Source: a virus
IMG/VR virus record: IMGVR_UViG_3300044641_006862
Location: 1 to 44,151 of that record
Length of the DNA: 44,151 nt
Reading direction: 5' to 3' (one strand)
Under the pieces are notes generated by a model. It had not been told where the DNA came from, did no database searches, and saw only the letters and a program-made list of their open reading frames with translations. Positions 15,899-41,305 of the stretch are shown piece after piece. How positions within the stretch are numbered: the stretch's first letter is position 1; every line of letters begins with the position of its first letter. A program made the translations under genes and the position numbers.

Positions 15899-16123
15899 AT
15901 GAGCGTTAAATTAATATTGGATAACTACTTAGGAAAAAACACTAGAGTTTCCGAAAAAGATATGGGTGATGGCACAAAACAAGTTTGTGACTTAGATACC
16001 GGTGACTGTTACACAGTTAGAATGAAAGACGGATTGATTGAAAGAGTTGACAACACAATGAAGACATTCAAAAAAATTCAAGTTGAAACCAATAAAGGGA
16101 TAAAAACACTGTTAAACGGATAG
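15899..16123 (+). CDS. Unrecognised 74-aa protein
   Basis: I do not recognise this small, charged, soluble protein. It has two close cysteines (VCDLDTGDCYTV, about residues 32-43) and a Lys-rich C-terminal half, with no signal peptide or membrane segment. Its start follows the palindromic motif at 15878, and its stop is 2 nt before the next ATG, so it is probably co-expressed with the repeat protein at 16126. Gene-like spacing and a following coupled gene support that it is real. Confidence 0.6.
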   Translation: MSVKLILDNYLGKNTRVSEKDMGDGTKQVCDLDTGDCYTVRMKDGLIERVDNTMKTFKKIQVETNKGIKTLLNG

Positions 16124-16125
16124 AA

Positions 16126-17787: not shown

Positions 17788-17806
17788 TTTAATTCAAAAA
17801 AAGTAT

Positions 17807-17837
17807 AACGGGAGCAGTTTATTGTTCCCGTTTTTTT
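17807..17837 (+). terminator. Rho-independent terminator after the SSB gene
   Basis: A 10-bp stem (17807-17816 with 17823-17832, one G-T pair) with a 6-nt loop is followed by five further Ts. It lies 20 nt after the SSB stop, and some read-through is needed to express the genes downstream unless another promoter exists. Confidence 0.85.
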
Positions 17838-17862
17838 GTTTATATTTTTAAAAAAACAAAAC

Positions 17863-18084
17863 ATGAAACCAATTATCGCTGAAAAATTAAAAGACGCTTT
17901 GATAAAGAAATATGAAGCAGAAATTGCCGATGCGGAGGCTAGACTTTATATTTATTTTACAAATCCTGTTGGGATCGGAGAACACCCTCAACATACAGAA
18001 GAAATGGATCATTTAGTTGGACAACTAACTGATGCTAAAGACAAATTAGAAACAATTACAAATTTTAAAATTTACGAATTATAA
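17863..18084 (+). CDS. Small conserved phage protein with NPVGIGEH motif
   Basis: This 73-residue protein contains AEIADAEARLYIYFTNPVGI followed by GEHP (about 19-42) and a coiled-coil-like C-terminus. Similar short proteins with a N-P-x-G-I-G-E-H core occur near replication or tail genes in several T4-like phages, as I recall them; no function is known to me. The ATG at 17863 is preferred to an in-frame start at 17836, which would lie in the terminator T-tract. Its stop overlaps the next start by one base, so it is coupled to the recombinase gene. Confidence 0.72.
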   Translation: MKPIIAEKLKDALIKKYEAEIADAEARLYIYFTNPVGIGEHPQHTEEMDHLVGQLTDAKDKLETITNFKIYEL

Positions 18085-19091: not shown

Positions 19092-19112
19092 GAACAACTT
19101 AACAATTAGAAA

Positions 19113-20123
19113 GTGTCAAAGACATTATTAGTAGACGGAAATAATTTATTGAAAATTGGATTCCACGGTGTTAGAGAATTCTATCACAATGGAAAACATG
19201 TCGGTGGTGTTTGGCATTTTCTAAATACTCTTCGTAAATTCTTAGAAGAACACAACTATAACAAAGTTGTCGTATTTTGGGATTCAAAAACCTCATCTTC
19301 ACAAAGAAGATTGATTTACCCAAAGTACAAATTGAATCGTAAACCTTCAGAGTCCGAACAGAAAGAAGAATCTTTTTCCGAACAAAAGCAAAGGGTTAGA
19401 CAATACCTTGAGGAGATGTTTGTAAGACAACTGGAGACAGAACACGCAGAAGCTGATGACTTAATTGCTCAGTACTGTAAAATCTCTTTAGATGAAGAAA
19501 AAACAATATTCTCAAGTGATAGAGATTTAACTCAACTTATCTCTGAAAAGGTTTCGATTTATTCACCATCTGCAAAAAAATATTATAAGTTTGGGGACAC
19601 AATAAAGTTACACGATGTTGAGATACCTCACTATAATGTTAAAGTGGTTAAAATCCTAACAGGGGATAGTTCTGACAACATTGATGGAATATTCTATTTG
19701 GGTGAAAAAACATTAGTTAAATTATTTCCTGAGCTACTTGAAGAATTAGTACAAATACCCTATATTTTGGATAAAGGTACTAATCTACTTAAAGAAGAAA
19801 AAGGAAATGTTGCCCTTCAGAATCTATTGAGTGGTAAAACAAAAGAAGGTATTTTTGGTGATGAATTTTATGTTATCAATCAAAAGTTAGTCGACTTAGA
19901 TGAACCACTTCTAACGGATGAAGAAAAAGAATTAGTAGGGCTTTATTACTCTGAGTCGATGGATCCCGACGGAAGAGGACATAGAAATCTAATTCGAATG
20001 ATGATGGAGGACGGGTTTTTTAAATACTTACCAAAGGGTGACGATGCTTGGGTTAGTTTTTTAAAACCATTTCTCAAGTTAACAAGAAAAGAAAAAACAA
20101 AATTTAGAAACAAAAAAAACTAA
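19113..20123 (+). CDS. rnh: RNase H / 5'-3' flap exonuclease (T4 Rnh-like, PIN/FEN fold)
   Basis: This 336-residue protein resembles T4 RNase H (305 aa), a FEN1-type nuclease that removes lagging-strand RNA primers. Acidic metal-binding residues are visible as LLVDGNN (Asp8), VVFWDSK (Asp57), AEADDLI (Glu113, Asp115, Asp116), SSDRDLTQL (Asp136, Asp138) and GDSSDNIDGI (Asp185, Asp188, Asp191). The last of these runs into a helix-hairpin-helix-like LGEKTLVKLFP segment. The start is a GTG at 19113. This is supported because the conserved LLVDGNN strand begins five residues later and no upstream ATG is in frame. The Lys-rich C-terminus is typical of DNA-binding tails. It sits between recombinase and helicase genes. 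Confidence 0.83.
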   Translation: MSKTLLVDGNNLLKIGFHGVREFYHNGKHVGGVWHFLNTLRKFLEEHNYNKVVVFWDSKTSSSQRRLIYPKYKLNRKPSESEQKEESFSEQKQRVRQYLEEMFVRQLETEHAEADDLIAQYCKISLDEEKTIFSSDRDLTQLISEKVSIYSPSAKKYYKFGDTIKLHDVEIPHYNVKVVKILTGDSSDNIDGIFYLGEKTLVKLFPELLEELVQIPYILDKGTNLLKEEKGNVALQNLLSGKTKEGIFGDEFYVINQKLVDLDEPLLTDEEKELVGLYYSESMDPDGRGHRNLIRMMMEDGFFKYLPKGDDAWVSFLKPFLKLTRKEKTKFRNKKN

Positions 20124-20132
20124 AAAAACAAA

Positions 20133-20582
20133 ATGAAAGAACAAGATATTACAAAAGTAGAATTTTTGTTAATGTGCAACGACAACATCGTAGTTCAACG
20201 ATTCTTCAATGTTAGAGGTTTCAACAAAAACTCTTACAAATCAGAAGAATTTTTTAATCATATCGAAAGTCTTTGTCATGAATTGAAGTACGACTTAAAG
20301 ATGAGATCGGTAGTCTACATGTTGGACAATCAATACGATATTTTAGAGAATCCAGAATTACTAAACACATCAATTACTGATGGACCTGAAAATTTTAATT
20401 TAATTATTAAGGTCGGAGATATGACAATTTGTCATAGACAGTTTGATGCGAAACCATACCCCCCAAAGGTCAGATACACCGTAGACCTACGCCCAAAGTT
20501 AAAAGCTGTCATGGCGGAATTGACTGACATTTTTTCAGGTCAAGAATTTAATTATTTTTATCCTAACTTTATTAAAAACTAG
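20133..20582 (+). CDS. Unrecognised 149-aa protein in the replication cassette
   Basis: I do not recognise this protein. It reads as a compact alpha/beta domain with alternating strands (VEFLLMCNDNIVVQRFF; MRSVVYMLDN; FNLIIKVGDMTICHRQFD) and a helical end followed by FNYFYPNFIKN. It has no membrane segment or known catalytic motif. Its ATG lies 9 nt after the RNase H stop, and the helicase gene follows 34 nt later, so it is likely co-transcribed and may take part in replication. The position matches that of small helicase-loader or recombination-mediator genes in T4-like phages, but no sequence evidence ties it to either. Confidence 0.7.
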   Translation: MKEQDITKVEFLLMCNDNIVVQRFFNVRGFNKNSYKSEEFFNHIESLCHELKYDLKMRSVVYMLDNQYDILENPELLNTSITDGPENFNLIIKVGDMTICHRQFDAKPYPPKVRYTVDLRPKLKAVMAELTDIFSGQEFNYFYPNFIKN

Positions 20583-20585
20583 TAG

Positions 20586-20592
20586 TATTTAT
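20586..20592 (+). promoter_or_regulatory. TATTTAT motif upstream of the helicase gene
   Basis: TATTTAT lies 24 nt before the ATG at 20617. It is the most distant of the seven motif copies and the only one inside the replication cassette. Confidence 0.38.
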
Positions 20593-20616
20593 CTTTACTA
20601 ACAAGAGAAAAAATAT

Positions 20617-22005
20617 ATGGCGACTAGTAAAAATTTTGAGTATTTAGGAAACACATTTCAGTTACAATTATTAAATCAAATGATTGTAGACAAAGATTTT
20701 TCACACTCTATTTTAGATGTAATCGAGAACAATTATTTTGAAAACAAGTACTTCAAAATAATTATGCAAATGGTAAAAGAGTATTATGTAAAATATGATC
20801 ACACACCATCATTCGAAACACTTGAACAGATAACAAAATCTGAACTACAACAAGCAACAGCATCAAAAATTGTCTTAGACACAATTAAAAAAATTAAAGA
20901 TGCACCCATTGACGGAGTACTTTTTGTTCAAGAAAAGGCTATGAAGTTCTGTAAACAACAAGAGCTTCAAAAAGTAATGGGAAAGGCACAAAAGATTATT
21001 GATGGGGGTGAGTTTGAAAATTACGATACCCTTGAGGAACTGGTTAAATCCGCACTTCAAGTTGGAGCTAAAGATACCTCAATGCTGGATGTATTTTCAA
21101 ACCTTGAACAAGTTCTTGAGGACGATTACAGACACCCAATTCCTATGGGAATACCAGGTATTGATAGATTATTAAAAGGAGGTTTGGCAAAAGGAGAAAT
21201 TGGTGTTATCTTAGCACCTACGGGAGTTGGTAAATCAACTGTCCTAACCAAGATGGCGAATCACGCATTTAACCTTGGGTTTAATGTTCTACAGATATTT
21301 TTTGAGGACAACCCAAAGGTAATACAAAGAAAACACTTCACACTGTGGACTAAGGTTCATCCTGACGATTTGTCAGAAAAAAGAGAAGAGGTAATGACTA
21401 GAGTTAGAGAAATCGAAGAGTCAATGCCAAACAAGTTGATTATGAAAAAGTTACCGTCAGATACAATGACGATGTTGCAAATCAAAAATCAAATTAGAAA
21501 AATGGTATCTGATGGGATCAAGATTGATATGATTGTTTTAGATTATATCGATTGTATTGTACCTGATAAAAACTTAGGTGATGAATGGAAGAGTGAAGGA
21601 TCCGTAATGAGAGCTTTTGAGGCGATGTGTCACGAAATGAATCTTGTGGGTTGGACCGCAACCCAAGGTAACAGAGCTTCAATATCTTCAGAAGTTGTGA
21701 CAACAGATCAAATGGGCGGATCAATTAAAAAGGCACAAGTGGGACATGTTATTATATCTGTGGCAAAAACTTTACAACAGAAAGAATTAAAGTTAGCTAC
21801 GATCGCAATTACAAAGTCTCGTATCGGAGATGACGGTGTTGTATTTGAAAACTGTAAGTTCGATAATGCAATGATTGAAATAGATACTGAAAGCTCAATG
21901 ACTTTCTTAGGTATTGAGGAACAAAAAGAAGAAAGACAAAGACAACGAGTTCGTGAACTTCTTGAAAAAAGAAAACAAAAGGAAACACAAACAAAAAAAA
22001 AATAA
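20617..22005 (+). CDS. 41: Replicative DNA helicase, gp41/DnaB-type
   Basis: This 462-residue protein is close in size to T4 gp41 (475 aa), the ring helicase that unwinds the replication fork. The N-terminal helical domain (about 1-170) is followed by a RecA-like motor with GIPGIDRLLKGGLAKGEIGV, Walker A APTGVGKST (Lys206), a Walker B-type MIVLDYIDCI (about 305-314) and the ATQGNR motif (about 347-352) typical of DnaB-family helicases. The Lys/Glu/Arg-rich C-terminus is unstructured. No intein or insertion is present. The gene follows RNase H and the 149-aa gene and precedes nrdB by 16 nt. Confidence 0.88.
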   Translation: MATSKNFEYLGNTFQLQLLNQMIVDKDFSHSILDVIENNYFENKYFKIIMQMVKEYYVKYDHTPSFETLEQITKSELQQATASKIVLDTIKKIKDAPIDGVLFVQEKAMKFCKQQELQKVMGKAQKIIDGGEFENYDTLEELVKSALQVGAKDTSMLDVFSNLEQVLEDDYRHPIPMGIPGIDRLLKGGLAKGEIGVILAPTGVGKSTVLTKMANHAFNLGFNVLQIFFEDNPKVIQRKHFTLWTKVHPDDLSEKREEVMTRVREIEESMPNKLIMKKLPSDTMTMLQIKNQIRKMVSDGIKIDMIVLDYIDCIVPDKNLGDEWKSEGSVMRAFEAMCHEMNLVGWTATQGNRASISSEVVTTDQMGGSIKKAQVGHVIISVAKTLQQKELKLATIAITKSRIGDDGVVFENCKFDNAMIEIDTESSMTFLGIEEQKEERQRQRVRELLEKRKQKETQTKKK

Positions 22006-22021
22006 ATAAATTTTAAATAAA

Positions 22022-22969
22022 ATGGAAAAAATACTAGTTGAAAATCCTGGTCGGTTCGTCATATTCCCTATCGAACACAATGATATATGGGAATTTTACA
22101 AACAACACCAAGCGGCATTTTGGACGGCAGAAGAGGTGGATTTGAGTAATGATATTAGAGATTGGGAGAAACTTACAGAAAATGAACAATATTTTGTTAA
22201 GAATGTTTTATCATTCTTCGCAGCATCTGATGGAATTGTCAATGAAAACTTGGCGGAAAACTTTTACCGTGAAGTTCAGTACCCTGAGGCTAAGTTCTTT
22301 TATGGGTTTCAGTTAGCGATGGAAAATATACACTCATTGATGTATTCGTTATTGATTGACACATACATATCTAATGCAAAAGAAAAAGACGAATGTTTCA
22401 ATGCAATTGATAGATTACCCGCAGTACAGAAAAAGGCTAAGTGGGCGTTAGATTGGATTGAAAATGCTTCATTTGCGGAAAGATTAGTTGCGTTCGCGGC
22501 AGTTGAAGGTATTTTCTTTTCAGGTTCATTTTGTTCTATCTTTTGGATGAAATCAAGAGGTATCATGCAAGGATTGTGTAACGCAAATTCACTTATCTTC
22601 AAAGACGAAAACCTACACTGTGATTTTGCAATTCACTTGTTAAACAATCACTTGGAAGATAAACCATCTGAAAAAAGAATTAAACAGATTCTATTATCGG
22701 CATTAGAAATCGAAAAAGAATTTATCACTGAATCACTTCCAGTTTCACTTATTGGTATGAATTCTAATCTTATGAAACAATATCTTGAATTTGTTGTTGA
22801 TGGATTGTTAGTTAAATTTGGTTGTAGTAAAGAATTCAATGTAGAACAACCATTTAAGTTTATGGAGCAAATTGCTGTTGAAACAAAAGGTAACTTCTTT
22901 GAATCAAGAACCATGGAATATCAAAAAGCGAAATTAAACGAAACAATAACATTTACAGAAGACTTTTAA
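22022..22969 (+). CDS. nrdB: Ribonucleotide reductase class Ia, small (radical) subunit
   Basis: This 315-residue protein houses the di-iron centre and tyrosyl radical used to reduce ribonucleotides to deoxyribonucleotides. All six iron ligands are visible: Asp70, Glu101, His104, Glu162, Glu196 and His199. The radical tyrosine is Tyr108 in [15 protein letters not shown]. Spacing matches mouse R2 (139, 170, 173, 177, 233, 267, 270) with offsets of 69 to 71. The C-terminal FTEDF parallels the FTLDADF tail that docks on the large subunit. It is closer to eukaryotic-type R2 than to E. coli NrdB in these motifs. It lies 9 nt before nrdA, so the two subunits are made together. Confidence 0.95.
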
Positions 22970-22978
22970 TTTTAGAAT

Positions 22979-25408
22979 ATGTCATTAAAAATAAATAAAC
23001 GAGTAGGAGAGGGTGTATCGTTTAACCCTCAGAAAATCTACAATAGAGTTAAACGAGCGTCTAAAGGTTTGAATGTAAATTCGGACGAGATTTTTATTAA
23101 AGTGATTACATCGGTACCAACTGAGGGTGAAGTTACAACTAAGGAACTTGATAAATTAGTTTACGAAATTGCGGCTTCTTACACAGGTAGTCACCACGAC
23201 TATTCTAGATTGGCGTCGAGTGTTGCGATCTCATCATACCATAAAGAAACAAATGATAGTTTTTCTCAAACAATGATGTTGCTTTATAGTGATGGTATTA
23301 TTAATGAAAAATTAATTGAAACAATTAAAGAATATGGTGAGGACACTATTGATGCGGCAATTAATCACGATAATGATTATAACTTCGATTACTTCGCTTG
23401 GAGATCTTTACAGGAAATGTATCTACTAAAAAGACCAAACGGTAAAGTAGTTGAAAGACCACAACACATGTATATGAGAGTTGCTCTATGGGTTACGGAT
23501 AATATGGCAGACGCATTTGAGTATTACAAATCATTGTCAAATCAGTTGATTTCTAAGGCAACACCAATCATGATTAATGCAGGAACAAAAGTTCCTCAGT
23601 TAGCATCTTGTGTACTTCACTACAATAATTCAGATTCAAGAAAAGGTTTGTTAGATACATTGAATGACATCTCAACTTTCTCATCAGACGCGGCGGGGAT
23701 TGGTTTATCTATGTCTAATATTCGTAGTAAAGAAAGTCGTATCACTACTTCAGGTGGATATGCTGGTGGTCTTTTGAAATACTTGAAGATTGTAAATGAG
23801 TCACTTAGATTCTTTAATCAACAAGGTCGTAGACCTGGTAGTGCTGCTATCTACCTTGAACCTTGGCACAAAGATATTCTTGATCTATTAGATATCAAAA
23901 AGAATACAGGTGCTGAAGAATTGAGAGCTCGTGATTTATTTACCGCACTTTGGATTCCAGACAACTTCATGAACGCGGTTAAAAATAACGATGATTGGTA
24001 TTTGTTCTGTCCTAATGACATTGTAAAGGCGGGATTGAAACCATTACAAGAATGTTATGGTGACGAATACGAGGCGGTTTATAATACTGCGGTAACTATG
24101 GGGTTGGGTAAAAAAGTAAAAGCTCAAGACATTTGGTCTAAAGTGATAGAATCTCAAGTTGAGACTGGTGTTCCTTACTTATGTTCTAAAGATAGTGCCA
24201 ACAGAAAAACTAATCATCAAAACATCGGTGTGATCAAACAATCAAATCTTTGTAATGAAATTTATCAATATACTGATGAGGAAACTACAGCAATTTGTAC
24301 ACTATCTTCAATGGTATTAAAGAACTTCATTCAAAGTGGTAAATTTGATTTTGAATTGTTATTCACGGAAGTTAGAAAGGTTGTTAGATCATTGAATAAA
24401 GTTGTTGACATTAACAACTACTCAACTCAAAAAGGTTTGAAAGGTGGTTTAGAACAAAGAGCAATTGCAATTGGGACTCAGGGATTGGCAGATGTATTCT
24501 ATTTGATGGATTATATTTTCACATCTGAAGAAGCTAAAAAACTTAATAAAAACATTTTTGAGACAATCTATTACGCAGCAATCTACGAAAGTAATCAATT
24601 GTGTATGAATGGTAAGTACGAACAATATAAGTTCTTTAAAGGGTCACCAATGTCGCAAGGAGTATTCCAATTTGATATGTGGGGATTAGACGAAACGCAA
24701 CTTTCAGGAATGTGGGATTGGAGTAAACTTAAAAAGAGTGTAGCCGATTACGGTGTTTGTAACTCATTATTTACAGCTCAAATGCCAGTTGCGTCTTCAG
24801 CTAAGATTACAGGTTCATATGAAATGACAGAACCGGCTCACTCGGCTATTTTTAATAGAAGAGTTGTTGGTGGGGAAATCATGATAGTAAACAAATACTT
24901 AATTAATGATTTTGAAAAAATTGGAATTTGGTGCGAAGACTTGAAAAATGAAATAATTATAAACGAAGGATCAGTTCAAAATATTAATTTTAACAACTAT
25001 TTGGATCCTGAAGATAAAAATTACAATAAGAAAGTTAAACGAATTGAACATTTAATTCCTAAGTATAAAACTATTTGGGAGATCTCACAAAGAGAACTTA
25101 TTGATATGGCGGCAGATAGAGCACCATTCATTGATCAATCACAATCAATGAACATTTATATGTCAAACCCAACATTATCAAAGATTACTTCATCACATTT
25201 CCACTCTTGGGAAAAAGGATTAAAGACTCTTTGTTATTATGTTAGAACAAAAGCGATATCAACAGGAGCGAAACATTTAGCGTTGGATATGTCCAAAAAA
25301 CAAAAACCAAAAGCAACTCCTGAACCACCAAAAGTTGATTATTCTCACTTGAATTTACCACCAAGACCTGAGAGTTCTGACTTTGAATGTTTTGGATGTT
25401 CATCATAA
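22979..25408 (+). CDS. nrdA: Ribonucleotide reductase class Ia, large (catalytic) subunit
   Basis: This 809-residue protein has an N-terminal ATP-cone (about 1-95, with VSFNPQKIYNRVKRA) for allosteric control by ATP/dATP. The catalytic barrel follows. Active-site residues are Cys211 (QLASCVLHY), Asn423, Cys425 and Glu427 (NLCNEI) and Cys440 (AICTLSSMV). They match human R1 Cys218, Asn427, Cys429, Glu431 and Cys444 in order and spacing. The radical-transfer tyrosine pair is seen in CYYVRTKA. The C-terminal ECFGCSS gives a Cys804/Cys807 pair for re-reduction by thioredoxin or glutaredoxin, neither of which is encoded in this window. No intein or intron is visible. A terminator follows 6 nt after the stop. 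Confidence 0.95.
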   Translation: MSLKINKRVGEGVSFNPQKIYNRVKRASKGLNVNSDEIFIKVITSVPTEGEVTTKELDKLVYEIAASYTGSHHDYSRLASSVAISSYHKETNDSFSQTMMLLYSDGIINEKLIETIKEYGEDTIDAAINHDNDYNFDYFAWRSLQEMYLLKRPNGKVVERPQHMYMRVALWVTDNMADAFEYYKSLSNQLISKATPIMINAGTKVPQLASCVLHYNNSDSRKGLLDTLNDISTFSSDAAGIGLSMSNIRSKESRITTSGGYAGGLLKYLKIVNESLRFFNQQGRRPGSAAIYLEPWHKDILDLLDIKKNTGAEELRARDLFTALWIPDNFMNAVKNNDDWYLFCPNDIVKAGLKPLQECYGDEYEAVYNTAVTMGLGKKVKAQDIWSKVIESQVETGVPYLCSKDSANRKTNHQNIGVIKQSNLCNEIYQYTDEETTAICTLSSMVLKNFIQSGKFDFELLFTEVRKVVRSLNKVVDINNYSTQKGLKGGLEQRAIAIGTQGLADVFYLMDYIFTSEEAKKLNKNIFETIYYAAIYESNQLCMNGKYEQYKFFKGSPMSQGVFQFDMWGLDETQLSGMWDWSKLKKSVADYGVCNSLFTAQMPVASSAKITGSYEMTEPAHSAIFNRRVVGGEIMIVNKYLINDFEKIGIWCEDLKNEIIINEGSVQNINFNNYLDPEDKNYNKKVKRIEHLIPKYKTIWEISQRELIDMAADRAPFIDQSQSMNIYMSNPTLSKITSSHFHSWEKGLKTLCYYVRTKAISTGAKHLALDMSKKQKPKATPEPPKVDYSHLNLPPRPESSDFECFGCSS

Positions 25409-25478: not shown

Positions 25479-25937
25479 ATGGCTAATGGTATAACTTATG
25501 GAATTGCGTTCCCTTTTGTAGATTCTTTTACAGGAAGATACCTTGATGTTACTAATAGTACGGAAGGTGAAATCAGAGCAAATCTTGTACACCTATTGTT
25601 AACTAGAAAAGGTAGTAGATATTTTTTACCTGATTTTGGTACAAGATTGTATGAATATATATTCGAACCATTAGATGGTCCAACATTTTCTGATATAGAA
25701 AATGAAATTAGAGATACTGTAAGAAACTACATGCCAAATTTACAAGTTACAAATATAACGGTTGAAGATGCTTCTACGGGATTAGAAGACAAAGGATTCA
25801 CTGTTAATCAAAATGGTGAACGAGAATTTAAAGTTACTAATATTGCAACATTAGAACACACTGCCAGAATAAAAATTGATTACAGAGTCACAGACTCGGC
25901 CTTTGAGTCTCAAGATTTTATAATACTTAATATTTAA
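25479..25937 (+). CDS. 25: Baseplate wedge protein, gp25-like
   Basis: This 152-residue protein is a member of the GPW/gp25 family (T4 gp25 is 132 aa), which links the baseplate wedge to the sheath initiation point. Diagnostic features are EGEIRANLVHLLLTRKGSRY (about 28-47), then LPDFGTRLYEYIFEPLDGP (about 50-68) and a C-terminal strand region for wedge contact. It is followed after 6 nt by the gp6-like gene, the same 25-6 wedge association as in many contractile systems. Confidence 0.9.
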   Translation: MANGITYGIAFPFVDSFTGRYLDVTNSTEGEIRANLVHLLLTRKGSRYFLPDFGTRLYEYIFEPLDGPTFSDIENEIRDTVRNYMPNLQVTNITVEDASTGLEDKGFTVNQNGEREFKVTNIATLEHTARIKIDYRVTDSAFESQDFIILNI

Positions 25938-25943
25938 TTATAT

Positions 25944-27785
25944 ATGGCAGAAAAGAAGATTTCCTATACGGTGAGGGACTTTCAAGGAGTAAGAACTGAG
26001 CTAATTAATTTTACAAGAACTTACTACCCTGATTTAGTTCAGAACTTTAACGATGCAGGTATTTTCTCTGTAATGTTAGATTTGAATGCTGCGGTAACAG
26101 ATAACCTTAACTATCAAATAGATAGAAGTATTCAAGAAACCGTACTACAGTTTGCACAACAAAAAAATTCTGTTTACAATATTGCAAGAACATATGGTTT
26201 AAAAGTACCAGGTCAAAGACCTTCAGTTGCGTTAGTGGATTTTTCTATTACTGTTCCTGCTTTTGGGGATAGAGAAGATTTAAGATACTGTGGGGTATTA
26301 AGAAGAGGTTCACAAGTAAACGGTGCGGGTCAACCATTTGAAACTGTTTATGATATTGATTTCGCATCACCAATAAATGCTGAAGGAGCTCCAAATAGAA
26401 TTAAAGTACCAAATTTTGATTCTAGTGGTAAGTTAGTAAACTACACAATTACAAAAAGAGAAGTTGTCGTAAACGGAATTACAAAGGTCTTTAAAAGAGT
26501 TATAACACCAAACGATAGTAAACCTTATTTAGAATTGTTTCTACCTGAAAAAAATGTTTTGGGTATAACTAGTGTTTTGTTAAAATCTGGTACTCAGTAT
26601 TCCACAATACCAAACCCACAAGACTTTATTACTATAGGACCTGAAAGATGGTTTGAAGTGGATGCTCTTGTTCAGGATAGAGTTTTTGTTGAAGACCCAA
26701 CTAAAACTTCTGATCAACCTGGTATTAAAGTTGGGTTATATATAACGACATCTAATAAGTTTATTTCTGAATATACACCTCAAGGTTTCTGTAAGTTAAC
26801 ATTTGGTGGTGGTAATATTTCTGCTGACGAACAATTAAAAGAATTTGCAAGAGACGGTAAAGGTTTTGATCTTAGTCGTTACACCAATAATTACGCTATG
26901 GGTGCTGCACTTTCACCAAACACAACTTTATTTGTTCAGTACAGAATAGGTGGTGGATTATCAAGTAATGTTGGTATCAACACAATAACTCAAATTGGTA
27001 CTGTTTCATTTGCGGTTAACGGACCATCGGCAAGTGCCAATGTAAGTGTAACCAATAGTTTACAGTGTAATAATGTTACTGCGGCAATTGGAGGGGCTAA
27101 CCCACCAACAACTGAAGATGTTAGAAACATGGTATCATTTAACTTTGCGGCACAAAACAGAGCGGTAACGGTAAATGATTACAATTCAATTTTAAGAACT
27201 ATGCCAGCACAGTTCGGGGCACCTGCTAAGGTAGCTATAACTGAAGAAAACAACAAAATTAGAATTAAAATGTTGTCTTATGATTCAAGTGGTGTATTAA
27301 CAAATGTTGTATCAAATACATTAAAACAAAATGTTGCGAACTACCTTTCTAATTTTAGAATGATTAATGATTATATATCTATTGAGGCGGCCGAAACTAT
27401 AGACTTAGCGGTAACTGTAGATGTGGTGTTAGACAATAGTCAGAACCAAGGTGCGATAATTGCAAAAACAATAGAAATAGTTACAGACTTCTTTAATCCT
27501 TTAGTAAGGAACTTAGGTCAGAATGTTAATATATCAGAACTAAAAAGATTAATCCAATCTGAAAACGGTATCGTTTCAGTTTCAGATGTTCTGTTCTTCA
27601 ACCAAGTTGGAGGTCAATACTCATCAACTCAAACTTCGATGACATATTTAGACCCTGTAACAAGACAAATCCAACCAGTTGCAGATACTTTATTTGCAAC
27701 ACCAACTCAAATTTACCAAGTTAGATACCCAAATAAGGACATTAATATCAGAGTTCTTAATCTTAAGTCTGTTAATTTCTCTTAG
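25944..27785 (+). CDS. 6: Baseplate wedge protein, gp6/J-like
   Basis: This 613-residue protein matches the gp6 / baseplate J-like family (T4 gp6 is 660 aa), which forms the inner wedge ring. Visible features are the N-terminal DAGIFSVMLDLNAAVTDNLN helix and YQIDRSIQETVL (about 33-65). In the C-terminal third, AVTVNDYNSILRTMPAQFG (about 407-425) and VRNLGQNVNISELKRLIQSE give the usual J-like domain ending in a SVSDVLFFN strand. It lies immediately after gp25. The last 100 bases hold only a shadow ORF. Structural wedge role is firm at family level. Confidence 0.87.
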   Translation: MAEKKISYTVRDFQGVRTELINFTRTYYPDLVQNFNDAGIFSVMLDLNAAVTDNLNYQIDRSIQETVLQFAQQKNSVYNIARTYGLKVPGQRPSVALVDFSITVPAFGDREDLRYCGVLRRGSQVNGAGQPFETVYDIDFASPINAEGAPNRIKVPNFDSSGKLVNYTITKREVVVNGITKVFKRVITPNDSKPYLELFLPEKNVLGITSVLLKSGTQYSTIPNPQDFITIGPERWFEVDALVQDRVFVEDPTKTSDQPGIKVGLYITTSNKFISEYTPQGFCKLTFGGGNISADEQLKEFARDGKGFDLSRYTNNYAMGAALSPNTTLFVQYRIGGGLSSNVGINTITQIGTVSFAVNGPSASANVSVTNSLQCNNVTAAIGGANPPTTEDVRNMVSFNFAAQNRAVTVNDYNSILRTMPAQFGAPAKVAITEENNKIRIKMLSYDSSGVLTNVVSNTLKQNVANYLSNFRMINDYISIEAAETIDLAVTVDVVLDNSQNQGAIIAKTIEIVTDFFNPLVRNLGQNVNISELKRLIQSENGIVSVSDVLFFNQVGGQYSSTQTSMTYLDPVTRQIQPVADTLFATPTQIYQVRYPNKDINIRVLNLKSVNFS

Positions 27786-27862: not shown

Positions 27863-30800
27863 ATGTCTAAATCATATAGAATAAGGACACAAGTTGGTGT
27901 CGATAAATACATAAATGTAAATTTAGAACAAGATTGGGAACAACTTGAGATATTGTCTCTGAAGATTCTTGCTAATAATATTTACACTCGTTTTTGTGCC
28001 GATTACGGTGTTGTAACGGGTCGTGTATTTGTAAATGGGGGGTTTGGATTACCAAATGCTAAAGTATCAATTTTCATTCCTTTAACTGATACAGACGAAT
28101 TAGATCCCGTTATTTCAGAACTATACCCATTTAGAAGTATTAATGATACAACTGAAGAGGGTTACAGATATAACCTACTACCTAAGTTACCTTCATACGA
28201 TGGACATGTATCCACAGGGTCATTCCCAAACAAAGGGGATGTATTAATGAATGAATCATATATTGAGGTATATGACAAGTATTATAGATTTTCTGTTACA
28301 ACAAACGAAAGTGGTGACTTTATGATTTTTGGAGTACCGACAGGTGAACAAACTATTGTAATGGATGTTGACTTATCGGATATTGGATGTTTTTCTTTAT
28401 CACCACAAGATTTGATACAACAAGGTTTGGCAACAGAAACACAAGTTGATGGAGCAAGATTCAAGTCATCCACAAACTTAAGAGAGTTACCACAAATCAA
28501 AAACCTTATCTATACAGTTAATGTTAGACCATTTTGGGGAAGTGAGGATTTATGTCAAATTGGTATTACAAGAGTTGACTTTGATTTAACAAAACAAGCT
28601 AATATCAATATACAGCCTACCGCAATATTCATGGGATCGATAATATCAACAACTGATGATGATGCTTTAAAAGTAAGTTGTAAACCAAAAAACAATACCG
28701 GTAATCTTTGTGAGTTGATTGCAGGTCAAGGTGAAATACAAGGAATTAGACAAACAATTTTTTCTGATATCAATGGTTTACCTATTCTTGAAAGATGGAA
28801 CATAGAACAAGCAGGTAAAGTTATTGATGGAGACGGAACCTACTTAGTTAATGTCCCAATGAACTTGGATTATGTTACTACAAATGAATTTGGTCAACAG
28901 GTATTATCTGCGGATCCTGCAGTAGGAGTACCTACAAAAGGAAAATACAGATTCAAATTTAGATGGCAAACACAACAAGGATTACAAGGTAGTTTTTTAA
29001 GAGCCGACTTTTTAGTTCCAAACATTAAAGAATATGGTTGGACCAATTCAGGAAACGATCCTTTTGATCCTACACAAATTACAAACTACGCTTATCCACA
29101 AATCCCTATAGGGTTAATATCAGGTCAGACTGTGAGTCCGCCAGCTGGTGGTTACATAAGTCCGATATTTTACAATGTCGAAAGTTATTCAATATACATT
29201 AATGGTGATCAATATTTTGGATCTCCTGAATCTATACAAATTAATGCGGGAGATACACTACAATTTGTGTCAAGTCCTTTAGATAATACAGTAGCTCAAG
29301 ATATCATATTCCAATTTGTTCCTCAATCGCTCTTTGATGTTTATAGATCTTATGCGTTTAGTACCGATTGGGATGATTATGCAAATGCTCAAGAGGCTAT
29401 TAACTGTGAAGATAGCTTCTATGAATTCAAATACAACAAAGTTTATACTACAGGAATGTTCTTGGATAGATATAAAAATGGTATTGGTAGAGCAAGACAT
29501 TTAGGTATAAAAGAAATTGATAACAGAAGCTGTAAGTCTACTGTTAACACATTTCCTGTGAATGACATTATTAGAAACTTTGATTTCATATTTTTCGTTT
29601 TCAATATACTAATTAATATTCTGACTTTTCCAATCCTAACATTACTATTCATAGCCCACTTTATATCATTTATGTGGCCGTTATTGAAATATGTTTTGAT
29701 TGTTCTTGGAATATATTTTACTTACGAAGCGGCAGTTGCATTAGTGGATTCGGTCCAAACAGCGATTGCGGCTTTTAACACGGCATTGGACATGGTAAGT
29801 TTTGGTGCGGGTGCGGTGGTAAATGTTGGAAGTATTTTAGAGGCGGTAAGATTAGTTTTATCCGCAGCGGCCAAAGTTATTGTTGCAACATTTAAATTAG
29901 GGTTATCAATAGCATTTACTGCCGTGGCTGTGGTTGCCGCGGCAAGAATAAAAGGTTTCCCAAGAATTGGTTTACCTATGATCTCTTATCCTGATTGTAC
30001 AAGTTGTGATTGTGATTGTAAAAGTGCTGAAATGGATGATGATTTCGATGAAAGTTCTGTCACTCAACAAATTGAAGCGGCGGGGGCAGCAAATAACGCT
30101 CAACTTGGAGCGGAAGTTTTGTCTATACCTAAAACTTTAATTGCACCTGTTAACTATTCCGGATCTTATAATATTGACCACCCAAATTTGAGTGTTAATG
30201 AAGATAACGAAGGTCCGTATCATCCTTGTGATAGTTTGGGAACTTTGATTGGTGACCAAGCATTATCAGCGGATTTGGCCGTTAGAGCATCTTTAGATTT
30301 TCTTAGATTATTTTCAGGGTATGATGTTCTTTCATCAACATCGTCTAATAAATACATACCAAATCCTCAGTACTTGTTAAAGGCTCCACAACCTTTTCTT
30401 TTCACAGGTAAAAAATTAGCACCACTTCTTTTAAATGCTGCCGCAGATCAAAGAGGTTTCGCATTTCCAAAAAGTGTAACATTAAGTCAAAAACTAAACG
30501 AGTTTAATACTCGAGATAAGTACTTTAAAAGTAGTACAGTTACACCAAACGGTACTGGTGTTAACAGAATTAAAACAACTGTAAATCCATCTTTGGGGTC
30601 TTCATACTATGAAGATCAAGTTCTCGTTGTTTTAATGAATACAGGGGCGGTTTCACAATTAGGAGTTGGAAATGTGGTTACATTCCAAGACCCAAATTAT
30701 GTTAACCCAAACTTTACCTCACCAGGAAACAGATTAACTAACTTAACAGGAGCTACTACCAATCAATTTCAAAACAATGCAATAACAGGTGTAACAACAA

Positions 30801-33505
30801 CAGGTAACACAATTTCTGTGCAAGTACCATACGCTAACCCTAATTCACCAACTTCCTTTTACTCACCAACACCTAATATAGTTATAGTTTCACCTACGGT
30901 AAGTGGATTTAGTGTTCAAGGTAATAACAATGTTGAACAATCATATTTACAATACCCAACTGATATTGAATATTTCCAACTTATAACTGGAGTTACCTTC
31001 AATGATTTTATTGCGTTATCAAATACAGGTAATACAGGGTTTTTTCCATCTCAGTATTTATTACATGATGTTGTCATTGGGGTAAATCAATGTGGTGTTT
31101 TAGATCTTGTTTATAATAATGTGGTTACAAGAATAACTGATTATCAAAATCTTGAGATCTGTATTTTTGTTCGAGGAGTTGATCCTCATAGCGCAAAACA
31201 ACCAACAATTGAATACGATTTATCTAAGATTTTTGGAAAGTCCTATGGACAAGGACCAATTGTTAGTGGAAGTTATTATCTTAATAGACCAATCCAACCA
31301 ACATCAGGAACAGGATATAAACCATTAAGTCATGATACCGCAGACAACACAACAGCTAATTTATATTACCCATCATTTACATTTACACCAACACCATCAA
31401 ATTACACTGCTTTCACCTCTAATTATCCTTACTATTATTTAAGTACTGATGATATTATATCAACAAACTATAACCCATACCCTGGTCAGTGGCAAACTAA
31501 TATAAATTCAAGTAATCAAATATTAACAAACACAAATGGTAGACAATTACCTGTTGCAAATCAATCATTTTATATGGTTGGTGGTACATACATAAGATGG
31601 GTTGATGCTCAATCCCCAACACAAACTATGTTACTATATACGGGTAACAATTCAAGCTCTCCTTCCTGTGACCAAGACTGTCAGAACCTTGAATACTTTA
31701 ATACGGGGTCAACATTCTACACCGGAATAAACGCGGCAGGTAATCTTACGGCATTGTATTCACCGGCTTATTATAGATATAATTTACCTGGTGTTAATTT
31801 TAGTAGTTCTGTAAACATTGTAATGAGAAGTGATAGGTTACCAACCTCATCAACAGTACAAAATGGTGCCACAGGAACACAGACAGGTTTTGGTCTTCAT
31901 CAAAACGATAATTTTGCCGTATTTACCGTACAAGGTCCCGTATCTTATCCGTTCATAACGGCAGGAGGTGATTTATTTACGGGTGAAAATCAAGATGATG
32001 ACCCAACAACACAAGCACTTACAGAAACATTAAGTTGTGAAGGTATGGTACCTTTGGAATGTTATTCAGGTTCAGGTAGTAATGTTGGTGTGGTACCTGC
32101 AGGTCAATGCTCAATTCCTGAAAATCGAATGATTAATGGTTGTTATTGTTTATTGAACAAAACTTATTTAGTTGAATATGGTGCTGACGCTAGATTGTTT
32201 TTAGAATGGAAAGTAAGATTTACAATGAACTTTGCGGCATGTAGAGGAGTATTTGGTCAGGTATTCCAAAACAATTGGATCAATGGAGTTCTTTACATGT
32301 ACAACTTCAATAAGAGAACAACATTTGATGCTTTTGCGAATCCAGTATACAATTACTGTGAAGATGTGATCATGTTCAATGAGATATCAAATGTGTTCTT
32401 CTATAGATCATCACCATGGAATAAATCAACTCAGAGATTTATTGGTAAAGATTCGCCACAAACTAATCCAAATGCTGCTGGTATTAATTTCCCTGGGTTT
32501 GGTTATAACAAAAAACAAATTCAGTTCCCAACAACTATTACCGATTTAGGACCAAGAGATTATTTTATTAATCAAATTTGTTGTACCTCAGGAGAAGATG
32601 GTTTTGGATCATATTATGCTGACCAAATTAAAACAACATCATATCAAGATAATTCAGATATAATCCAATTAGGATTCCTATCAAGAATCTTGAATGAAGG
32701 TGTAAGACAAAGAATGATACCTATATCTACAGGTGGAGATAGTTCTGAAGGAAAGGGTATAATACAATTCTTTAATAGTACAAGAGGTGGGTATAGAATT
32801 GATGGTGATTGGGCTCAAATGTTATCTATAAATTCAGAATGGAAAGTTTTACCGTTCATAACAGATAACTTACCCCAACCTAACCCTAACGATTATATTT
32901 ATTTTGGTGATAACAATAATGGAACAACATCACTTTCAGGGGACGAAATAAGACCTATCATGGGGTTGTTCTTCCAAGTTGATGATGATGAAACATATTA
33001 TAGAAAGATCATGTCCCCAGGTATTGAAACATACAACTTCAACCCATTAATAGAAGAAGACTTTGGTTATCCTAAATCTCAAGAAGTACCGTTTTATAGA
33101 TGGTCAATAAAAAAACCTTCAGTTTCCGCAGGTACTCCTAATATTTTTGGATCTGAGGATAACAATTGGTTTACTGATACATACCCAATACAAACACCTC
33201 AGAATAATCAATTAGGTTTTTACCCTAAAAAATATCAAGACATAGACTTTACAACAGGAGGTGAAAAGTATAGAACCACAACAACACAAAATGGTTTTAT
33301 AAGTAATTATGTTAATGGGGTTCCTACTCCAATTATGAATTTAGCGAACATCTTACAAGGAGACCCAAGTTCACAGAATAACACAACTCAAATTTATAGT
33401 AATTCAATAATAGTTGGAGCACCATATCATTTTTATTTTGGGTTAAATAATGGTAAGACTGCGATCGACAGATTCTTTAAACTATATGTTGTAAACGAGT
33501 TATAA
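27863..33505 (+). CDS. Giant baseplate/wedge-position protein with internal transmembrane-like segment
   Basis: This 1880-residue protein occupies the slot after gp25-gp6, where T4 has gp7. Residues about 48-170 resemble a carboxypeptidase-regulatory-like Ig fold: VVTGRVFVNGGFGLPNAKVS, then ESGDFMIFGVPTGEQTIVMD. Residues about 570-695 are strongly hydrophobic and could form about four membrane helices, including FFVFNILINILTFPILTLLF and AFTAVAVVAAARI. A DCTSCDCDCK cluster (four Cys) follows near residue 712, then an acidic run. The rest is Tyr/Asn/Gly/Thr-rich, typical of fibre-like structural proteins. Similar large proteins occur in uncultured T4-like phages from memory. A virion structural role is likely; membrane insertion is inference from hydrophobicity. 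Confidence 0.65.
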   Translation: MSKSYRIRTQVGVDKYINVNLEQDWEQLEILSLKILANNIYTRFCADYGVVTGRVFVNGGFGLPNAKVSIFIPLTDTDELDPVISELYPFRSINDTTEEGYRYNLLPKLPSYDGHVSTGSFPNKGDVLMNESYIEVYDKYYRFSVTTNESGDFMIFGVPTGEQTIVMDVDLSDIGCFSLSPQDLIQQGLATETQVDGARFKSSTNLRELPQIKNLIYTVNVRPFWGSEDLCQIGITRVDFDLTKQANINIQPTAIFMGSIISTTDDDALKVSCKPKNNTGNLCELIAGQGEIQGIRQTIFSDINGLPILERWNIEQAGKVIDGDGTYLVNVPMNLDYVTTNEFGQQVLSADPAVGVPTKGKYRFKFRWQTQQGLQGSFLRADFLVPNIKEYGWTNSGNDPFDPTQITNYAYPQIPIGLISGQTVSPPAGGYISPIFYNVESYSIYINGDQYFGSPESIQINAGDTLQFVSSPLDNTVAQDIIFQFVPQSLFDVYRSYAFSTDWDDYANAQEAINCEDSFYEFKYNKVYTTGMFLDRYKNGIGRARHLGIKEIDNRSCKSTVNTFPVNDIIRNFDFIFFVFNILINILTFPILTLLFIAHFISFMWPLLKYVLIVLGIYFTYEAAVALVDSVQTAIAAFNTALDMVSFGAGAVVNVGSILEAVRLVLSAAAKVIVATFKLGLSIAFTAVAVVAAARIKGFPRIGLPMISYPDCTSCDCDCKSAEMDDDFDESSVTQQIEAAGAANNAQLGAEVLSIPKTLIAPVNYSGSYNIDHPNLSVNEDNEGPYHPCDSLGTLIGDQALSADLAVRASLDFLRLFSGYDVLSSTSSNKYIPNPQYLLKAPQPFLFTGKKLAPLLLNAAADQRGFAFPKSVTLSQKLNEFNTRDKYFKSSTVTPNGTGVNRIKTTVNPSLGSSYYEDQVLVVLMNTGAVSQLGVGNVVTFQDPNYVNPNFTSPGNRLTNLTGATTNQFQNNAITGVTTTGNTISVQVPYANPNSPTSFYSPTPNIVIVSPTVSGFSVQGNNNVEQSYLQYPTDIEYFQLITGVTFNDFIALSNTGNTGFFPSQYLLHDVVIGVNQCGVLDLVYNNVVTRITDYQNLEICIFVRGVDPHSAKQPTIEYDLSKIFGKSYGQGPIVSGSYYLNRPIQPTSGTGYKPLSHDTADNTTANLYYPSFTFTPTPSNYTAFTSNYPYYYLSTDDIISTNYNPYPGQWQTNINSSNQILTNTNGRQLPVANQSFYMVGGTYIRWVDAQSPTQTMLLYTGNNSSSPSCDQDCQNLEYFNTGSTFYTGINAAGNLTALYSPAYYRYNLPGVNFSSSVNIVMRSDRLPTSSTVQNGATGTQTGFGLHQNDNFAVFTVQGPVSYPFITAGGDLFTGENQDDDPTTQALTETLSCEGMVPLECYSGSGSNVGVVPAGQCSIPENRMINGCYCLLNKTYLVEYGADARLFLEWKVRFTMNFAACRGVFGQVFQNNWINGVLYMYNFNKRTTFDAFANPVYNYCEDVIMFNEISNVFFYRSSPWNKSTQRFIGKDSPQTNPNAAGINFPGFGYNKKQIQFPTTITDLGPRDYFINQICCTSGEDGFGSYYADQIKTTSYQDNSDIIQLGFLSRILNEGVRQRMIPISTGGDSSEGKGIIQFFNSTRGGYRIDGDWAQMLSINSEWKVLPFITDNLPQPNPNDYIYFGDNNNGTTSLSGDEIRPIMGLFFQVDDDETYYRKIMSPGIETYNFNPLIEEDFGYPKSQEVPFYRWSIKKPSVSAGTPNIFGSEDNNWFTDTYPIQTPQNNQLGFYPKKYQDIDFTTGGEKYRTTTTQNGFISNYVNGVPTPIMNLANILQGDPSSQNNTTQIYSNSIIVGAPYHFYFGLNNGKTAIDRFFKLYVVNEL

Positions 33506-37412: not shown

Positions 37413-38318
37413 ATGGCAACAGGAAATTACGGAACGATAAGACCGGCAGATGTTAGTCCCGAAGATGTACAGATAGTAATGGTCTATACTGAGTCAAGAG
37501 ACGACACTCAAAATTTTACATTAACAACACTTGATGCTCAAGATGTTTTAAGACCTTACTTCAATAACCAAGAAACGGGAGGTAGTTCGGTTGAAATTTT
37601 GGGGGGTCTTTATAATTTGAAACTTCCTGCTGATCAATTTACTAAATTAGGGATCTATACTTTGATGATTAGACCTGCTGAGATAAGAACATTAATAACA
37701 GATTGTGGTGTTTTATCTTCACTACCAAATGTTAAGGGTATTGTTATTGACTTGAATAATGTTCCTGTTGAGTACCAAAACAAATTTGTTAATCAAGGGT
37801 TAGTTGGTTTTAGAGTTGAGTATTTAAATCCCGATGGGACAAAAATACCAAACTTTTTTAGAATTATCACATCTTCTTTCTATTGTGAACCAGTAGTTCA
37901 AAACCTTACAAACACAATTCAAAAATCAATTAGATATAGGTATGTACAAGGTGCAACAAACTTACTTTTCTGTACAGTGTCACCTTCATCATCACCTACG
38001 AACAAACCAAGTGCAACACCTTACATTGGACAACCAAATCAAAGTATTATTATAACAAATACATACTTCAATCCGATAACAACCGAAATTGAAATTGTTG
38101 ATCAAGATATCTCAACTCTTGCAATTGCACTTTATGGGAACCAAACTAAATCTATGGAAGACGGTATCTACACTATCTACGATGCTAATAACAACATCTA
38201 CAAACAATACAACTTGTACGAAATTAAAGATCAGTTCAATACTCTTCTTTATGAAGTTAGACAAGATCGTGGTGAAAATATCGACTTCTCAAAAGCATTT
38301 AATAACATAACGGTTTAA
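37413..38318 (+). CDS. Probable tail structural protein, 301 aa
   Basis: The family is not named with certainty. The N-terminus (YGTIRPADVSPEDVQIVMVY, about 6-25) and beta-rich body fit a tail-tip or collar subunit. A Ser/Pro/Thr-rich stretch near residues 190-205 (SPSSSPTNKPSATPYIG) looks like a flexible linker between two domains, and the C-terminal part ends with a charged YEIKDQFNTLLYEVRQDRGE strand-helix. The stop overlaps the ATG of the 995-aa gene by one base, so the two products are coupled. Confidence 0.6.
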   Translation: MATGNYGTIRPADVSPEDVQIVMVYTESRDDTQNFTLTTLDAQDVLRPYFNNQETGGSSVEILGGLYNLKLPADQFTKLGIYTLMIRPAEIRTLITDCGVLSSLPNVKGIVIDLNNVPVEYQNKFVNQGLVGFRVEYLNPDGTKIPNFFRIITSSFYCEPVVQNLTNTIQKSIRYRYVQGATNLLFCTVSPSSSPTNKPSATPYIGQPNQSIIITNTYFNPITTEIEIVDQDISTLAIALYGNQTKSMEDGIYTIYDANNNIYKQYNLYEIKDQFNTLLYEVRQDRGENIDFSKAFNNITV

Positions 38319-41305
38319 TGGCGACAAATAAATTTACTTGCCCACCTCAAAGTAGTGCTGCTAACAGCTTCTCCAATAATTTAGTTGGAGTTCAGCTTGT
38401 TACGGGGGGAGGTTTAACGCAAGCGAATTTTGAGTTCACAACAGGTATTAGTGAGAAACAAAATAGAACCTTTACAATAGGTAGTTTTTCCGAACCGATC
38501 AATCTTGAAAGTATCAATATTGAAACAAATGCTGAAGCTGCTGATATACTTGCAAACAATTATAGAGTTTATCCTAATTATGATTTATCTCAAGTTACAA
38601 ACTTTACACAGTATGGATCTTTGGTTAAAAGATTGTCTGTCTCTATAACAAAAATTATCAACTATTTTCCTGGCGGATTAGAAGTTAACTCTAAAACGCC
38701 AAAATTTATAACACAAGAAACCGCAATCAATATACAATACGATTCGGTAGAAAATGACACAACTTTTGAGATATATCTTGAATCAATACAAAACCCATTC
38801 GAATTAGATTATTCTGATAGTGCCGAGACAAACATGTTGTTTAATGAAATGCAAGTTTCTCCTTTAAGAAACATGAAGTTGTTTTACAAAAAGTATGTTC
38901 TGTATCTGAATGGATCTCAATATCCTGTCAATTATTTATTCCCAACTAATAGTTCCTCAACAACATTGAAACTAATAGTTGATGGTAATCCTTTTAGTGG
39001 GGCCGCATCATCATCTGATTATTTGGTTATTAGACCAAATGATTTTGAAAGTAACAAAGTTTTTAATTTAGACTTTGATCCTGTTGAACAATTTCTCTTA
39101 AATAGACAAATTACTCCTGCTTATACTGCACAGTTTACAGTCCCAAGAGAACAAGAGGATGGTTCATATATTTTAACAACAGAATTAGTGACTTGGCCAA
39201 GAGCTGGTCTTTGGAACTTAGATATTAGTTCAGTATCGTTTGATAATTACTTAACACAGATAAATGATTTTGCGGTTAACTTAGATGGTTATAGTACTAA
39301 CATTATATCAAGATTCTTAACTACTGGAGCATTAAAAGAATTTGATACACCCGACCAAAGATTTGAAAAACTAATCCAACTATACGGAAGAAGTTTTGAT
39401 GAAACCAAAGCTTTTATAGGTGCGTTAGGTAATATTAACAGTATTCACTATACACCAAAAAATGACATACCATCACAACTTCTAAAAAATTTAGCTCAAA
39501 CATTAGGGTGGGTTACAAACTTTTCTCCGATATCTCAAGAAGAACTTTTACAGGCGGTTTTCACAACACAACCAAATACTTTTCCAGGTTTACAATTAGG
39601 ACCAACACCTGAAGAAATTAACTATCAGTTTTATAGAAACTTAATTTTAAATTCCGCTTACCTTTTCAAATCAAAAGGTACGAGAAAATCTATTGAGTGT
39701 TTGTTAAGAATGGCAGGGGCGCCTGAAGCATTGATTGATTTTAATGAGTATGTTTATGTTGCAGACCAAAGAATTAACATGTCTGAATTTGACCAACAGT
39801 TTGCTGAAATTAGTACAGGAGTTGTATTACAACAAATACCAATACTTCAGACAAATAATGTGTTCTCAATACAAGGTATACAGTACACAGGGTTTACAAC
39901 CTCATCAACAAACTTGACAGTATTAGCAACAAGAAACGATTTTCCTGTTGATGATTTTGGATGTCCAAAAATGCCAATACCGACGGAAAGTTATTTCTTC
40001 CAAATAGGTGGTGGATGGTTCGAATCTACACCACAACATAGAATGCCTGAGTTTGCGGTACCAACAAATCAAGTTTTCACAGGAAACAATCCTAACTACC
40101 AAACTCAATTATTACCATTCAATTATGGTGAGGAATATTTGTACAGATACAGATACTTCCCATACATGGATTTAGGATTCAAATTGAGAAAAGTTGCGGA
40201 AAACAAAAAAAGTTGGGTAGACACAACACCATTCTTAAGAAGTAGTTTTGAAGGAAACTTTAACGCTTATTATACGGTTGGGGAGGAATGTTTAGTATTG
40301 AATGTTAAAAATGTTGACATTATGATGAATCCGGCACAAGGTTTAGCCTATGATGTTTGGTCAATGTCTCGAGACACTAACTACCCAATACCTGAACAAG
40401 GTTTATTCTATACACCACCGTCACCTTGTAACATACCAAATCCATACCCTAAATTGGGTGGAGTTGATTGGACAACTATAATACCGAAACCAAAAACAAA
40501 AACTTTCTTTGAATTTGCTCAGACATTTTGGAGAAACATGATTAACACAAGAAACCGTCAATTTATAACCGATGGTAAAACTGGTGGTTACCCAACTCTA
40601 CAATCAATATATTGGAGCTACTTAGAATCTTTGACTAATGCCGGAATACCAAACAATAATTTCACATATCAAACAATGATAGATTTTGTTAATGGTATGG
40701 GAGACTATTGGATTAGAATGGTTGAACAAATGGTACCCGCAACAACGATATGGAACACAGGTGTAAAGTTAGAAAACTCTATTTTCCACAGACAAAAGTT
40801 TGTATGGAGAAGACAAGAAGGTTGTAAGTTTATTCCGATTCCTTGTAAGCCTTGTAGTTTAACAACTCAACTTTATGTACTTGATTGTCCTGTACAACAA
40901 GTTACTTGTGCGATTTATCCTTGGAATACAGATCCTAACATTACAAATTTTGGAACTCTTTTAAATACAACCATGAATGATTTCTTTATATCTCAAGGAG
41001 TAAACATTAATAGTTGTCAGTTGAATAGTACTGTTAGTAGTTGGTATGTTGATATTCGAGTAAACGGAAATGTAATCGCCGATGACTTGTTTTATCAAGG
41101 AATTGGTACAGGTCAATACCCTACACCACAACAGTGGTTAACGGCATTAACTGACACATTCCAAAGTTTACAAACATCTGGTTATGGTTATAATATAGAC
41201 GATAGTACAGACGAAATAATTATATTTAATAATAACTGTCTACCAAATTTTGATGATCTTCAAATCAATGTTGGAATAAACTTCGAAATATACTGTAATC
41301 AATAA
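38318..41305 (+). CDS. Tail connector/baseplate periphery protein, 995 aa (gpI-like segment)
   Basis: The middle of this protein (about 430-480) has [20 protein letters not shown] followed by MAGAP, a pattern like the KGT-containing core of P2 gpI-type tail proteins that join the baseplate to fibres. The N-terminal 330 residues are beta-rich; the C-terminal 130 residues hold several cysteines ([20 protein letters not shown]) and short strands, possibly the fibre attachment site. It overlaps both neighbours by one base, and the adhesin gene follows directly. Role as a fibre-bearing connector is inferred from the motif and position. Confidence 0.58.

Follow-up and report, generated by a model that had tools for sequence, protein, structure and literature searches.

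Gene content of the window

The window analysed was the whole of IMG/VR virus record IMGVR_UViG_3300044641_006862 (positions 1-44,151; 44151 bases), and it contained a T4-type set of tail genes (Table 1). Directly after the gp25-like and gp6-like genes lay an open reading frame (ORF) encoding a protein of 1880 aa, the subject of this report. The gp6-like protein matched proteins of Flavobacterium phage immuto and of uncultured phages at 25-28% over 98-99% of its length. Gene order was examined in 33 relatives; the series gp25, gp6, 1880, 631, 268, 391, 301, gp7-like (numbers are protein lengths in aa) was retained as far as the contigs reach, with one or two small extra ORFs between these genes in a few of them.

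Table 1. Positions of tail genes in the window and of features within the 1880-aa protein
Feature	Position (nt)	Strand	Remarks
Tube protein	24-512		Part of the T4-type tail set
T4 baseplate/hub family protein	596-1366
Tape measure candidate	1527-3383		Weak match to phrog_10613, E 0.004
gp53-like protein	at 8494
gp25-like baseplate wedge subunit	25479..25937	+	phrog_261 E 3.7e-17, phrog_43 E 1e-12
gp6-like baseplate wedge subunit	25944..27785	+	phrog_219 E 2.5e-19
1880-aa baseplate-locus protein with hydrophobic segment	27863..33505	+	ORF; gene order common to relatives
N-terminal transthyretin/CnaB/carboxypeptidase-regulatory-like beta domain, aa 48-170	28004..28372	+	AlphaFold2 pLDDT ~66-88
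Second beta domain, aa 407-486, just upstream of the segment	29081..29320	+	AlphaFold2 pLDDT ~90
Cys C557, N-terminal flank of the segment	29531..29533	+	Invariant, 93/93
Predicted helix A, aa 574-610, conserved, with W605-P606	29582..29692	+	102-degree periodicity
Variable hydrophobic continuation, aa 611-643	29693..29791	+	Largely absent in L047/L048/L052/L058
Predicted helix B, aa 655-697, variable, hydrophobic	29825..29953	+	AlphaFold2 655-695; periodicity p 0.01-0.02; absent in L047/L048/L052/L058
LPMISYP motif, aa 704-710, just before the Cys cluster	29972..29992	+	Conservation counts in text
Cys cluster CTSCDCDC, aa 712-719	29996..30019	+	C712, C715, C717 invariant; C719 optional
gp7-like candidate, 995 aa	38318..41305	+	Match to Mel-JY01 protein

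Several other features of the window were observed. The large tail-module protein of ORF 3437-8491 contained, at 6050-6640, a weak OmpA-like domain of the peptidoglycan-binding type (Pfam OmpA, E 0.0011, and several NCBIfam OmpA models). Ala/Pro-rich repeats were encoded at 16126-16818; the long antisense ORF overlying them (16068-16427, minus strand) is probably a by-product of these repeats. Replication and recombination genes (gp32-like, RecA-like and a DnaB-like helicase; 16927-22005) were located inside the tail block, with the early tail genes before them and gp25 after them. Between the helicase and gp25, genes for class I ribonucleotide reductase, NrdB and NrdA, occupied 22022-25408. 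A lone ORF of ~619 aa was found at this region in the relatives L098 (5480-7336), L019, L036, L012, L102, L129 and L145; the copy in L098 matched TIGR02505, a model for class II reductase that depends on adenosylcobalamin (E 5e-85, under the curated cut-off of that model), an exchange of enzyme class at a single locus.

SprB repeats are known in the gliding adhesins of Bacteroidota. Such repeats (Pfam E 2.4e-11) were present, with Thr/Pro-rich repeats, in the ORF at 41305-44151, which continues past the window end and may encode a host-facing fibre. Together with the nearest relatives of the ribonucleotide reductase (from Cellulophaga and Tenacibaculum phages) and the nearest gp6 proteins with a named host (from Flavobacterium phages), these repeats suggest a host among the Bacteroidota.

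Identity and distribution of the 1880-aa protein

Searches of PHROGs and Pfam yielded no family for the 1880-aa protein at E 0.01-0.05, and none of note for 14 of its relatives. Among PDB sequences no homologue was found; the sole match, between the hydrophobic part and a potassium transporter (E 0.66-0.97), is meaningless. Three different family members gave no match in a collection of cultured phage genomes, nor was one found in bacterial genomes in a scan that rests on two short peptide patterns. Comparison with the neighbouring proteins of 631, 268, 391, 301 and 995 aa produced no sign of paralogy (hhalign probability at most 1%). One relative with a database entry was UniProt A0A8S5LA66 (Myoviridae sp. 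ctPuP5; Foldseek E 5e-33, 42% identity, 390 columns), which carries no assigned function.

The sequence-only reading had described the product as a wedge-position protein, a description that holds by gene position and fails by homology. The likelier counterpart of gp7 is ORF 38318-41305, of which aa 343-478 matched a 1336-aa protein of Microcystis phage Mel-JY01 (E 9e-6) whose gene sits three genes after gp6. The 1880-aa protein had no sequence match to a wedge family, and we rejected a gp7 identity for it. Its family profile found no match in the immuto, Mel-JY01 or LR756508 loci; since the large Mel-JY01 protein matches ORF 38318-41305 and the profile does not match there, the 1880-aa protein is an additional component, lying after gp6 and before the gp7-like protein. 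A tape measure identity was likewise rejected, as a candidate for that role lies elsewhere (ORF 1527-3383) and the structural model lacks a long coiled coil. From the position of the gene we infer that the protein is part of the virion.

The relatives used came from uncultured contigs, some as long as 296 kb, retrieved from IMG/VR as the best 80 per scan; at least 180 were found at first and later at least 590 with alignments. From the matches listed we selected 93 distinct members, less than 85% identical to each other and down to 40% identical to the window protein. Two exceptions apart, the gene was one uninterrupted ORF in every relative in which it did not run off the contig; the exceptions had internal stops after aa 1382 (L086) and aa 804 (L189), both outside the hydrophobic segment described below.

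The hydrophobic segment

Hydropathy analysis placed a strongly hydrophobic stretch at aa ~569-699, in agreement with the earlier coordinates (nt 29565-30040, or aa ~568-727 of ORF 27863-33505). Fifty overlapping 19-residue windows had a Kyte-Doolittle mean above 1.6. They covered aa 569-629 and 651-699, and the highest of them (aa 579-597) reached 2.32. The best 100-residue mean was 1.62, compared with 0.54 +/- 0.13 (maximum 1.06) when the protein's own sequence was shuffled 500 times, and the best 50-residue value was 1.85, compared with at most 0.89 across 19 T4 virion and assembly proteins. Chance hydrophobicity was rejected on both comparisons, which bear out the existence of the block. 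When 18 other ORFs of the window were tested, only ORF 41305 had a 19-mer above 1.6, and that at a single place; the tape measure candidate had no hydrophobic stretch by the same scan. The number of four membrane helices proposed from the sequence was not borne out, as hydropathy resolved two blocks and AlphaFold2 predicted, with low to moderate confidence, two long helices (aa 575-643 and 655-695).

Absence from close relatives had been named in advance as counting against the segment. It was instead present in 93 of the 93 distinct members among the matches listed, down to 40% identity, and poor conservation can be rejected. Because the peptide patterns that fetched the relatives were located outside the segment in three of the four scans, its presence was unselected in those scans. 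In all 93 it was a hydrophobic, helical segment of bilayer-crossing length (71-142 residues), and its best 19-mer scored at least 2.06, whereas the maximum over the remainder of each protein had a median of 1.30.

The most conserved part of the segment was aa 574-610, helix A. Hydropathy along it, averaged by alignment column, had a period of 102 degrees at 7.1 times the mean power (permutation p 0.0004; p 0.004 for the core, aa 575-608), with window limits that were picked with the alignment in view. Helix A has a thin polar stripe, with D574, N581, N585, T588, H599 and P606 on one side and K609 at its edge; in many far members T588 becomes K and N581 becomes S, and the stripe remains polar. 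A hairpin turning at P590 is disfavoured, as the helical phase runs on across that residue. Residues 575-608 included no charged residue in 59 of 80 members. Hydrophobic positions of helix A interchanged freely among I, L, V and F, with a mean entropy of 1.73 bits; those in aa 1-400 averaged 1.07 bits. H599, W605 and D574, by contrast, were conserved. Substitution of this kind would be anticipated on helix sides that face lipid or pack loosely, rather than in a soluble core.

Downstream, aa 611-697 were hydrophobic and variable in both sequence and length. One clade (L047, L048, L052, L058 and close relatives) was without most of this part and kept helix A and all the invariant cysteines; its naturally occurring deletion marks out the minimal module. 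Other conserved residues lay in and around the segment: P565 and D568 were invariant, N567, H599, W605, P705 and Y709 were kept in 81-92 of 93 members, and within the LPMISYP motif L704 was found in 89/93, P705 in 92/93 and Y709 in 91/93.

Flanking cysteines

The cysteine cluster noted in the sequence-only reading directly follows the hydrophobic stretch, and its conservation, a check which that reading had proposed, was complete at three positions: C712, C715 and C717, like C557 on the opposite flank, occurred in every one of the 93 members. C557 and this CxxCxC thus bracket the segment, which itself lies between two soluble regions of the protein, with four invariant cysteines. C719, the fourth cysteine of the cluster, was present in 52/93. 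Nine cysteines were invariant within the first 900 residues (C45, C231, C273, C283, C515, C557, C712, C715 and C717). Invariance on both flanks supports a putative common site formed by the flanking cysteines, either metal-binding or disulfide-bonded.

Structure prediction

AlphaFold2 was run on aa 1-900 with 49 sequences (mean pLDDT 66, pTM 0.39). The two predicted helices had pLDDT mostly of 60-76 with a low point around 641-660, and the cysteine region (aa 701-728) fell below 50. Outside the segment the protein was modelled as a mixture of strands and short helices. The domain at aa 48-170 matched mainly PDB structures of the TTR/CnaB fold by Foldseek (E 2e-4 and weaker); a weak Pfam match in this domain, to CarboxypepD_reg, was given by two of the 14 members searched (E 0.012 at best). 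A model of aa 715-1880 gave no Foldseek match.

Proposed membrane insertion and its alternatives

The 1880-aa protein is best explained as a structural part of the baseplate region in a phage with a contractile tail, whose hosts are probably Bacteroidota. For the segment we tentatively prefer, while granting it slightly less than an even chance, a role as an obligatory membrane-insertion module, whose shielded helices enter a host membrane during the baseplate switch. The possible order of events is as follows: in the assembled tail, the module would be shielded through packing in an oligomer; once the baseplate rearranges at the cell surface, the module would be freed; the helices would enter a membrane of the host, the outer one being the likeliest, and pack via their polar stripes as an oligomer. 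Insertion would anchor the tail and perhaps help passage, while the four flanking cysteines, as a metal site or as disulfides, would fix the base of the module. A baseplate-locus protein would thereby take on a task proposed, in other phages, for hydrophobic segments of the tape measure. As established for T4, the wedge parts of a contractile tail's baseplate remain on the cell surface, and it is the tube, the hub and the tape measure that travel inward. Since products of genes next to gp6 normally remain at that surface, the outer membrane is more likely to be the target.

Insertion is favoured by the hydropathy of the segment, above both chance and the T4 proteins, by its presence throughout the family and by the lipid-facing pattern of substitution. 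The periodicity and the charge-free core of helix A point the same way, as do the nine invariant cysteines, the synteny with gp25 and gp6, and a tape measure candidate that lacks a hydrophobic stretch of its own. Against it we count the placement in the virion by gene position only, the confidence of the helix models (moderate at best), the low pTM and a polar-stripe window chosen after the alignment was seen. In the clade with helix A only, a module spanning the membrane would cross it just once, and its two ends could then hardly be linked by a cysteine staple. T4 gp7 also counts against insertion: its hydrophobic stretch of 27 residues (aa ~879-907) reaches a 19-residue mean of 2.07 and yet sits in a protein of a solved, soluble baseplate.

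The same stretch gives substance to a second reading, somewhat less probable and still a serious one, in which the segment is a buried assembly core: a permanent helix bundle, formed with its own copies or with neighbouring baseplate proteins, that never touches lipid. The polar stripe and H599/W605 would then provide specific contacts, and the cysteines would hold the base with a structural metal. In the soluble wedge protein gp7 a comparable, shorter hydrophobic stretch carries the GenBank note 'predicted integral membrane domain', placed at the C-terminus (gene 7, L191:5561-8659). A bundle would also suit the coherence of the polar stripe over ~36 residues of helix A, the predicted helices, which are long rather than of short bilayer length, and the need of virion proteins to be soluble during assembly. 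The length and hydrophobicity of the segment are nevertheless far above those of gp7 (50-residue means of 1.85 and 0.54), the surface of the helix is mostly hydrophobic, and its hydrophobic positions are less conserved than those of aa 1-400. One half of the module differs in length among members and was lost in one clade, which is unusual for a packed core.

An improbable third reading is that the protein is inserted in the inner membrane of the host while phage is being produced, and that baseplates assemble on it there. T4 baseplates have been reported at the membrane, and positive residues (K/R609, R695, K697) lie at the helix ends, both in line with such docking. Set against them, inspection by eye revealed no N-terminal signal sequence, the segment is preceded by more than 500 residues that include no membrane-type stretch, the protein is co-conserved with the baseplate genes as one giant ORF, and release of virions would need extraction from the membrane. 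Most unlikely of all is the channel originally proposed, released on contraction to breach the inner membrane. In its favour, a tape measure candidate without hydrophobic segments leaves room for another protein to supply them. Against it, products of genes next to gp6 usually remain at the cell surface, it is the tube, the hub and the tape measure that enter, and nothing recognisable as part of a hub, tube or spike was found in the 1880-aa protein.

Comparison with known systems

The membrane-insertion reading can be set beside several described systems. In phage T5, a hydrophobic segment of ~46 residues in pb2* is proposed to be shielded before infection and then inserted into the outer membrane (PMC10038345). 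The likeness is that of a hydrophobic segment in a virion protein (a putative one in the present case, with a core of ~34 residues and a variable addition); the difference is that T5 pb2 is a tape measure inside a siphophage tube, whereas the 1880-aa protein has predicted beta domains, is encoded next to gp6 and carries invariant cysteines flanking its segment. Transmembrane regions have also been described in the tape measure proteins of diffocin, phiCD119, TP901-1, phage P2 and cyanophage Pam3, with P2 placed among phages that target Gram-positive hosts (PMC10996793). Those proteins likewise combine several hydrophobic helices in a tail protein with a proposed pore, but there the helices belong to the tape measure, and the window's tape measure candidate has none.

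T4 gp7 resembles the 1880-aa protein in being large, in being encoded directly after gp6 and in its hydrophobic stretch annotated as a membrane domain; it differs in that the stretch is far shorter and no sequence relation was found, its counterpart in the window being ORF 38318-41305. A hydrophobic stretch in a baseplate protein is therefore not unprecedented, and the earlier suggestion that such helices are rare in baseplates is borne out by the 19 T4 proteins, beside which the present segment is unusual, and is weakened by gp7. In phage Milano, disulfides in a cysteine-rich tail and baseplate hold back contraction (PMC10811340). That system shares with the present one contractile-tail baseplate proteins containing cysteines and differs in that the invariant cysteines here flank a hydrophobic segment. 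Milano shows that disulfide-linked baseplates exist; it is not evidence that the baseplate of the 1880-aa protein is one.

Significance

The hydrophobic segment and its flanking invariant cysteines define a so far unnamed protein family. How contractile-tailed phages seal or cross the membranes of their hosts is poorly known, and even in T4 the way in which DNA crosses the cell wall and reaches the cytoplasm has been described as essentially unknown (PMC11054660). The most far-reaching version of our proposal, which we regard as doubtful, is that a widespread group of uncultured contractile-tailed phages may carry their insertion helices in a giant baseplate-locus protein rather than in the tape measure, with assembly along polar stripes and an invariant four-cysteine clamp, giving a baseplate that, on being triggered, would plug itself into the membrane of the host. 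Should the segment prove to be a buried core, the family would still be instructive, as a case in which predicting membrane helices in a baseplate yields a false positive. If the segment does insert, a large group of environmental phages would possess a baseplate-encoded membrane anchor, and the residues to test in it are already defined: C557, C712, C715, C717, H599 and N581.
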